A DNA stretch of 64,000 nucleotides from assembly GCA_032622095.1 (NCBI GenBank), contig CP136066.1, positions 200,902,978 through 200,966,977 of the forward strand, read 5' to 3'. The position numbers and the translations under genes were made by a program. Under the pieces are notes generated by a model. That model saw only the letters and a program-made list of their open reading frames with translations, made no database searches and was not told the DNA's origin. Positions 11,301-63,892 of this stretch are shown here, piece by piece. This stretch comes from Siphonodentalium dalli. Its lineage: Eukaryota > Mollusca > Scaphopoda > Gadilida > Siphonodentaliidae. Position 1 is the stretch's first letter, and the number at the start of each line of letters is the position of its first letter.

Positions 11301-14300
11301 ATTACGTCACGTTGCTTTGTGAAAGTTTGTAAATTTTCATGCAAAAACCACATGTTCAAAGGTCACTTTTTGTTGATTCTAAGAATGTTTTCATTAACAA
11401 CCAATGACATCAATGATTAGAAGTTTGAACTGATTTCATTGGCTCAAGTTTAGGGGTGGAGTTTCCCCATTGATGCTAATTAGATGACAGAAAACCAGAG
11501 CGAATTGTTCGAAATGGCTGTGGGCTAACTTAGTAAGACGTCGCCAGCAGGTGCTCGAATGTGTCGCTTGGGATATTCTTTGTTTTATCGACATTGCGTT
11601 GATATAAGTACATTATTACTTTATAGTCGGTAATTATATATGCATACACGCAAAGAAGCTTCCCAAGATGAATTTGAGATATCTGCATGTCAACTGTAAA
11701 CTCGCCTTTATTTAGAAGCACCCGCATTGGGCTGACTTGATGTCAAACCAGGAGATATTTTTTTTTATTGATTTCTTTCTCGATCGATCAGGGTCCATGG
11801 TCTTTTGCGCGGTATATTTGAAATCTTGGAACAGATGGATATATAAAAGTAATATCTCATCAATTTATTATACTAAATTTGTAGATAATATATATAAAAA
11901 AGTTTTAATTATGTGTTTAGAATCCCGCCGATAGCACAACAGCGGCCGCGTCCGTAGTTACATTACAATTTTCAACCGGAAATAATATTCCGATGCTCCG
12001 ACATAACATGATTTCGCAGAGTAAATTTGTGCAATAAATGCAGAAAGATCCACTTTGAGTCATCAATTTGGAATTGCAATGTTCGAGTTCTCAAATTAAA
12101 CAACAATTGTGACACTTAATGAATATGTTTCACAACATTTGGTTTGTGGAGAAGTTCACCTACATTAAATATTGATCAAATTTCGTCTTCGTCGAAAATT
12201 CGCTACCAGTGAACCACGTGTTTCTGTTTCGTTTGTTTTCATTTTGTCAGCCAATACGAGACTGAGAACATACTCTATGTCAACATTTAATATTTAGGAA
12301 GGCAAGTTGGAAATACGTGCCTTCGTTATGTTAGTCCATTAAAAAAAAATATTATTATAAAAATCTTTTTTCACGTTCACGGATGAAGTGACAATCATAA
12401 TGGAACTCGACAGGAAAAACATCCCAATGGCCAGTTCCGCAACTGTCATGCTGAGATTTTGCTTAGCTGTGGCCGATTTAATTACGGCTGGGGAAAATGT
12501 TCATATTGCACTATTTGGAAATATAAAATCACCACTTAAGAAATAATACATAATCCAATATAAATATCAAGTTCAAGTTGTCATATTTTACATAGATTAC
12601 CCTCGCGGCCACGCATAACGCAATCAACAAGGAAGCGTCTCTGACAACAACTTTCGTTTTCGTCGAAACCACGTGTTTCTATTTCGTTTGTTTTCATTTT
12701 GTCGGCCAAAACAGCATTCTAAGTAAACATTTTGCAAATCTAAAGCCTAGCAAAGGAAGAAAGGATTTAATATGTGCCCTTCATGATCTTAACCATCAGC
12801 AGAACAAAACACAATCAATGTAAATCGTCATTATTACTCTTTATTCGAGTCTCAAATCCGAGTGTTGAAAATGCAAAAATTAAAGACGTCAAAAGACGAT
12901 ACGGACGCTACAACAAAAGACGTCAAAAGACGATACGTTGGAATAAGGGTTAAAGGAGTTGTGGCCCTTTTTCAAAAAGGAGGCAGAGTCCCATCTTCTA
13001 CCCACCCCTGCTCCCATACTCTCACCTCCTCTTCCCTACCCTTCTCCCACGCCTACCCCCACCACAAATCCTTGTCTAAGTTATACTTTCTTCTTGCTTT
13101 GAGAACAATACCCACAATTAATTACCTGACCAAATTATATGTCAGATTTGTGTATCTGACAATTGAGGTTCCACACAGCAATGCTGCATGGATACTATTG
13201 TTTGTCTAAGGGTGCTCTGTTAGCGCCTCCACCACTTAGCCAGGTGAGTTTATTTAACTAGAACAATGGAGCTCTACTGTAGCCTGTGTGTCGGTTTGGA
13301 TGCTTAAGACTTGTATTGGATAAAAGAGCCAAGATTGGAGATTTAACCCCTTTTATCCATTCCATGTCTTAACCCTTTACCCAACAAACCGGCCAAAACC
13401 GGCCAAATAAAGCTTCAACAGCCTAAAATATCTTCGGTCTGTCTCAATAGAACCATACAAATATGGATATCATTGGAACCGGCTCCTTGACCACATTGTG
13501 ATAGTTACAGTTATGCCCTGTGCCAATGCATTCTCTTATATATGCGAGTCGACCATAGGTCGCCTCGCATATATAAGAGAATGCATTGGCCTAAAAAAAT
13601 TATCTTTTTTTAACACTTTTTACCATTTTTTCTTACATTCTTTAACAATTTTATAATTTTTAATGTGTTAAGCCAATGCATTCTCTTATATATGCAAGGC
13701 GACCTATGGTCGACTCGCATATATAAGAGAATGCATTGGCACAGGGCCCTTCTGTTGGGTAAAGGGTTAACCTTTTCCATTATAAAGTAACTAGTATCTT
13801 GATATGTCACATGGCCATTTGCAACAACATAAAGAGAACTGCTTACACTAGAATAGTTGTGACAGGCTTTATAGATGTTATATTAACTCTTCTCTTTTGA
13901 TCCATAAATTCCAATTAACCCTTCTATTTTGACCCATAAATTCAAATAAGTTGTGTTATTATGTACATTTTGTGTCCTACTTTAGTACATAAGAGTATAC
14001 TTATAATTCCACATCAAAACTCTAGATTATGATTTCACTCATAGAATTTACTATCGCCAAGTGATGGGTTAAACATCTGCCAATCGTGATCAGCCTCTCG
14101 TTTATTTTAGAGTTATTTACCCTTTCTCGACACATTGAAGTTGTGCAATATATTTAGTGAATATACATTTTGTATTCTATTGGTGTGATCAATTCCTCTT
14201 TCAGTTTGTAGCATAGGGATCTGAAACCCATAAATTTCAAACCTGCCACCTTCATCGGGGGACATTTTTGTCAGCGTCTTTTACAGCCTGATATATATCC

Positions 14301-63892: not shown

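Follow-up and report, generated by a model that had tools for sequence, protein, structure and literature searches.

A 69-nt palindrome, together with a CCCTGT flank and an AT-rich tail, forms a module that is common to several non-autonomous DNA transposon families in the genome of the scaphopod Siphonodentalium dalli. Of chief interest is that one hairpin core lies under several unlike transposon ends. The stretch analysed, referred to as the window, comprises 64,000 nt of contig CP136066.1, at 200.90-200.97 Mb. Sequence matches in the window confirmed the original prediction that P and Q, which are different TTAA families, carry the same 69-nt palindrome; the two-family setting proved too narrow, the hairpin also being found in two further end types, R and S. 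A literature search, judged by titles and the starts of abstracts, found no paper on the 69-nt hairpin.

Sequence, fold and copies of the hairpin in the window

The hairpin has arms of 33 nt. The core is CGACC-ATA-GGTCG in the P type and CTCCC-ATA-GGGAG in the Q type; the inner stem differs as pairs, as had been claimed, at two adjacent positions (pairs 30-40 and 31-39), and a T.C mismatch at 28/42 is common to both types. The flanks are CCCTGT on the outside and CTAACA followed by an AT-rich tail (CTAACAATTTTT...) on the inside. In the copies read that have recognisable ends, the CCCTGT side points outward and the hairpin lies within the element end. With ≤3 mismatches allowed, the window yields 20 matches to the arm GCCAATGCATTCTCTTATAT, against 0 in each of 100 shuffles. 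Seven window hairpins, folded as single-stranded DNA, fold far better than shuffles (z-scores -5.7 to -15.6). The window has no Rfam match at gathering score. The P and Q copies and their hairpins are as follows.

P1, 13373-13766 (with TTAA 13369..13770), plus strand: TTAA MITE of 394 bp, tips CCCTTTACCCAACA, TTAA on both sides
P1 hairpin 1, 13522..13590, plus strand: P-type core, CCCTGT outer, CTAA inner
P1 hairpin 2, 13672..13740, minus strand: 98.6% match to hairpin 1 read as reverse complement
P2, 19221..21896, plus strand: parts 19225-19470 and 21755-21892, TTAA at both ends
P2 hairpins, 19374-19442 and 21798-21866: in the left and the right part
P3, 62741-62918 (with TTAA 62737..62922), minus strand: TTAA at both ends, hairpins and spacer gone
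Q1, 51613-51870 (with TTAA 51609..51874), plus strand: TTAA MITE with decayed Q-type hairpins at 51659-51727 and 51755-51823
Q2, 54175..54409, minus strand: element from 54179 to about 54409, right TTAA lost, orientation opposite to Q4
Q2 hairpins, 54224-54270 (internally deleted) and 54298-54364 (near full length)
Q3, 57062..57204, minus strand: truncated fragment with a hairpin at 57087-57155
Q4, 62349-62581 (with TTAA 62345..62585), plus strand: TTAA MITE with hairpins at 62382-62447 and 62469-62537, spacer of about 20 bp

The P1 hairpins form an inverted pair, as their reverse-complement match shows; they lie 149 nt and 26 nt inside the element tips and are separated by a spacer of 81 bp. 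P2 is a single P element whose two parts are separated by a nested insert, some 2.3 kb long (19471-21754). The ends of this insert resemble ATGTTTACCCATACC and GGTATGGGTTAAACAT, and a related end lies near 14065. At the P3 junction, P positions 1-156 are joined to 372-394. The four Q copies of the window are more decayed. A Q copy had been placed at 57056; there is no TTAA at that position and Q3 is truncated. The left side of Q3 adjoins another long palindrome at 56905-57065 (outer arms of 54 nt, inner arms of 26 nt, 2-nt gap), and a Q-like hairpin in locus L055, fetched from elsewhere in the genome, holds sequence resembling part of that palindrome.

The exons ending at 51598 and 62302 are presumably those of NVL, and a frame at 63668 matches AAA ATPases, including VCP/CDC48 and NVL chains. 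By reading, 14 intron bases separate the first of these NVL-like donors from Q1 and 46 the second from Q4.

Other repeats are present in the window. A tandem array of 26-nt units extends from 16189 to about 18000; a 300-nt reference matches it 59 times with overlaps, at 97-99% for the central matches. Repeat blocks with a spacing of mostly 155-165 nt occupy 2567-6200, 22900-28400 and 41600-43500. On the minus strand, 29641-35169 holds RVT_1 frames of 1303 and 408 aa, the larger of which also has an endonuclease domain; these are LINE-like elements with long open frames.

End types across the genome and the border of similarity

Searches of the 2.23-Gb genome, which consists of nine contigs, gave 312,227 matches to the exact 20-nt arm (156,189 and 156,038 by strand), 119,192 to the exact 25-nt P-type core, 91,612 to the P tip with TTAA and 17,723 to the first 27 nt of the S tip, where the arm, core and tip counts take in duplicated blocks and arrays. 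The reversed 20-nt arm pattern, used as a control, had no match in the genome. The copy number of the 69-nt hairpin is of the order of a hundred thousand. A sequence search of 264 kb (20 evenly chosen 10-kb stretches, which is 200 kb of the 2.23 Gb, plus the window) gave 38 whole or partial hairpins, of which the window holds 11. The arm had no exact match in viral contigs and none in bacterial or archaeal genome contigs.

At least four end types carry the hairpin in the loci fetched from the genome, namely P, Q, R (with TTAACCCTTTGAGTGCCAGG tips) and S (with TGTGACCC tips). R has a single hairpin in the four copies read (L002, L007, L012 and L055), and S (TGTGACCCGCCATATCAAATCCAGTCG) has two hairpins and is mostly 420-470 bp long. 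The left flanks of 100 listed matches out of 93,450 comprised 45 of P, 32 of R, 12 of Q plus 1 other Q end, and 10 of S, under a pattern that required T at -25 and outside which the right P end falls; this and the other sets of 100 listed matches come from the start of contig C1, which contains duplicated blocks. Pairs of hairpins without recognised ends occur at L012:6952-7299 and L022:3410-3751.

Overlapping loci (L003, L004, L005 and L008) were removed before the comparisons of tips, flanks and R-P tails and before the count at pair 8-62. At ≤1 mismatch, TTAA precedes the tip in 23/23 cases for P (4 of them in loci chosen by a TTAA pattern), in 9/9 for R and in 12 of the 23 pattern matches for Q, chance matches being counted. 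The inverted tips at the opposite end are CCCTTTACCCAACA, CCCTTYCATGA and CCCTTTGAGTGCC for P, Q and R, respectively. The tips of piggyBac-type MITEs are inverted repeats of the form CCY...RGG, and P, Q and R have both the TTAA duplication and the inverted tips by which such elements are recognised.

S is probably not a piggyBac-type family, because none of 49 S tips (inverted duplicates counted) is preceded by TTAA and 9 of 14 S loci have TA on both sides. Tc1/mariner-like elements have a TA target duplication. The remaining S loci are flanked by AT/AT, TT/TT, AA/TT, TA/AA and AT/AA. This tally excludes two loci without both exact tips, and 4 of the 18 two-ended rows (L054, L059, L065 and L072) were dropped as inverted duplicates; L072 matches L071 on one flank only and, if it is kept, TA lies on both sides of 10 of 15 S loci.

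Several further features of these loci were noted. In L071 an S element is inserted in the TATATA of a Q-like hairpin arm, and therefore hairpin stems can serve as TA targets. Bcl-2-family frames (PF00452, E 9e-11 and 2e-13, trimmed) lie between S tips in two related C1 loci (L062:603-1047 and L063:581-1118), either as a chance neighbourhood or by gene capture. At 0.73-0.93 Mb of C1, P and R hairpins repeat in tandem, in blocks of roughly 14.6 and 11.2 kb, and several S loci are present twice as inverted copies. At about 2307-2450 of L002, a TTAA-bordered, long near-perfect palindrome (TTAACCAAAGCAGAATTATGGGTAAC...) lies beside a P element, and L036 has a similar start.

Similarity between the families ends sharply at the outer base of the hairpin, within about 7 nt, and the core and the AT-rich inner tail are common. 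The flanks were compared with one copy per end type (P left, P right, Q right, the Q-like L056, R and S), which gives 15 pairwise comparisons. On the outer side all 15 agree at distances 1 and 3-6, 10 at distance 2, 7 at distance 7 and 2 to 7 at distances 8-24; the agreement of 10 of 15 at distance 25 is due in part to the choice of L056 and L050 by T at that position. On the inner side all 15 agree at distances 2, 3, 4, 6 and 10, and 4 to 10 of them at 12-25, in an AT-rich tail where agreement by chance arises more often. An R copy including its tail is 90.6% similar to a P copy over 128 nt, and copies from P, R and S are identical over the 69 nt (L010:3783, L012:2570 and L010:8825).

Two mixed elements were found. 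L056 has a P-type core under a Q-type end, and the element at L010:9345 has an S left flank, a Q-type hairpin and a Q inner side; the L010 hybrid lies within a local duplication with 520-nt spacing and therefore may be the product of ordinary unequal exchange. A survey of hairpin copies alone found deletions inside or between hairpins in P3, L002, L007, L022:3713, L064 and L076.

Explanations for the shared core

The sharp border, the mixed elements and the high copy number make template switching at the hairpin base plausible. The best explanation, to which we give about an even chance, is that the hairpin is a recombinogenic module onto whose base new ends have been swapped, the products then being amplified by several transposases. 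The palindromes would stall replication and extrude; repair, or gap-filling after excision, would switch template at the hairpin and join new ends onto the old hairpin core, and each new end type would then be multiplied by a transposase of its own. The paired P/Q difference would be one change in a source copy, spread with its families. In the part of the literature drawn on here, long palindromes stall replication forks and, when cut, leave hairpin-capped ends, from which template switching can follow; long near-perfect hairpins are fragile sites in other systems (PMC7999016, in part). Repair after the excision of cut-and-paste elements rearranges copies by slippage and template switching (PMC4168063, in part).

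A different origin, which we regard as unlikely, is that CCCTGT-hairpin-spacer-hairpin-ACAGGG is a transposon in itself, one that entered the ancestors of P, Q and S and has since been carried with them. Its inverted ends would be the hairpins. Recurrent inverted pairs fit this origin, with spacers of about 20 bp (Q4), 81 bp (P1) and 210-240 bp (S, L012, L022 and L056), as does the pair at L012:6952-7299, which has the S spacer without S ends. However, no target duplication was found by reading at the unit borders in P, S, Q and L012, and the four R copies read have one hairpin only.

Simple descent from one ancestor, in which the outer 25-150 bp diverged and the hairpin was kept, is a shade less probable again. 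It agrees with the orientation and the inner tail, which are the same across families, and with TTAACCCTT, which is common to P, Q and R. The border, however, is sharp at the hairpin base, yet some copies of P, R and S have the whole palindrome in identical form, and the S ends differ, with no tip after TTAA in 49. Part of the sharing among P, Q and R may nevertheless be plain descent, since all three start with CCCTT(T/C), and the constant orientation of the hairpin near the ends could reflect a function.

By analogy with the palindromes of piggyBac-type ends, the hairpin might be a subterminal transposase-binding site under selection, which we consider improbable. Such palindromes are bound by the cysteine-rich domains of the transposase, the 19-bp palindromes of piggyBac lie unequally far from the tips and the piggyBat palindrome makes contacts, as described in the sections cited (PMC11707139, in part); the P1 hairpins likewise lie at unequal distances from their tips. 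The transposase domain PF13843 has 128 matches in the genome (116 of 649 candidates scored), with many open frames of >600 aa. The hairpin arms, however, are longer than the known sites, S is unlike a TTAA family, and P3 is without both hairpins, though their loss may postdate its insertion. The exact 14-nt arm core was absent from all 20 piggyBac transposase 5' sides read, and so were the P and Q tips; an R-like tip was present in 2 of the 20 and CCCTTTATCTGC in 4. A 2.4-kb P copy (L061) was considered as an autonomous element and rejected; it has no frame of >104 aa and two hairpins, and is therefore taken as a P element with an insert.

Selection on the fold of the hairpin itself, which the original prediction had read from the paired changes, also has little probability. 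When P- and Q-type hairpins were aligned together (28 rows, 26 distinct), the covariation score was 0.114 against 0.071 in shuffles, with none of 500 shuffles as high, and 25 cells were altered on both sides against 11.0 in shuffles, although relatedness alone can exceed such shuffles. These 25 cells comprise 8 from pair 30-40, 8 from pair 31-39, 4 from pair 5-65 and five single cells elsewhere. The change at 5-65, from A-T to G-C in 4 of 26 distinct rows, is a third paired change and occurs in some Q copies.

Within types, compensation is not above the chance level. Among 100 listed of 1,347 P-type copies with G30->A, C40 is C in 97, T in 2 (re-paired) and A in 1, and the unpaired control site 46 is changed in 3, so that partner and control stand at 2/100 and 3/100. 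A second list covers 100 of the 6,302 hairpins that do not have the P bases. The four positions match Q exactly in 75 of them, 24 more are an altered Q type (some with G-T wobble) and the last is a decayed P type; none has a new Watson-Crick pair at 30-31/39-40. Pair 24/46 showed no association (Fisher p = 0.46) in the 83 of 100 listed rows with C/T at 24 and G/A at 46, 10 of which are T-A. Positions 8 and 62 are unpaired in 10 of the 13 Q-type rows (C.A in 8) and in none of the 15 P-type rows, and no row compensates; one Q lineage has therefore retained a broken pair. The mismatch at 28/42 likewise stands in both types. Repeated independent paired changes were not found in these comparisons, which hold the two adjacent P/Q pairs and 5-65 in some Q copies. 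P and Q thus differ by one main paired switch between source lineages, possibly a single event, and with the 2/100 against 3/100 and the broken 8-62 this leaves the claim of selection on structure unsupported. Selection may still have acted on the few source copies.

Non-autonomous elements of the Helitron/Helentron type end in a 3' hairpin followed by CTRR and lack both inverted ends and a duplication; this type was ruled out, the hairpin here being internal and P and R having inverted tips and TTAA, although CTAA adjoins the hairpin.

Known systems and consequences of a possible end exchange

P, Q and R resemble piggyBac-type MITEs in their TTAA ends, their CCCTT tips, their length (about 180-460 bp in measured copies, P lengths being taken from the first part of 100 listed places) and in having no transposase. 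The R tip is like TTAACACGTTGAGTGCCGG, which lies upstream of two piggyBac transposase genes of this genome (L029 and L033). They are unlike such MITEs in having, near their ends, a 69-nt near-perfect palindrome that is common to elements of another end type. The subterminal palindromes of piggyBac and piggyBat are also palindromic repeats placed asymmetrically near the tips but, as far as the sections cited describe them, they are protein sites of 14-19 bp, whereas the hairpin here is 69 nt long and is found also at TA-site elements (PMC11707139, in part). Galileo and Foldback-like elements have long inverted repeats in which gap repair, template switching and ectopic exchange likewise alter the structure; they are described there as one family with variable ends, in contrast to the single core under several unlike ends seen here (PMC4168063, in part). 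V-domain SINEs, which spread with the MER6 DNA transposon, likewise have a conserved part across classes of mobile element but, compared by description, that part is a retroelement domain (PMC6887750, in part).

Template switching at the hairpin base has a more far-reaching form, which is possible but rather doubtful, namely that the hairpin behaves as a selfish cassette, one level below the transposon. It would move among MITE families of different transposase classes through template switches at its base, and the families acquiring it would expand. If this is true, a single palindrome controls a large share of the mobile DNA across an entire genome. If ends swap at the hairpin, an old core with new ends can found new transposon families, and a classification of MITEs by their tips overlooks the core that they have in common. 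With more than 300,000 exact palindrome arms, the genome offers a natural test of how animals tolerate long near-perfect hairpins.
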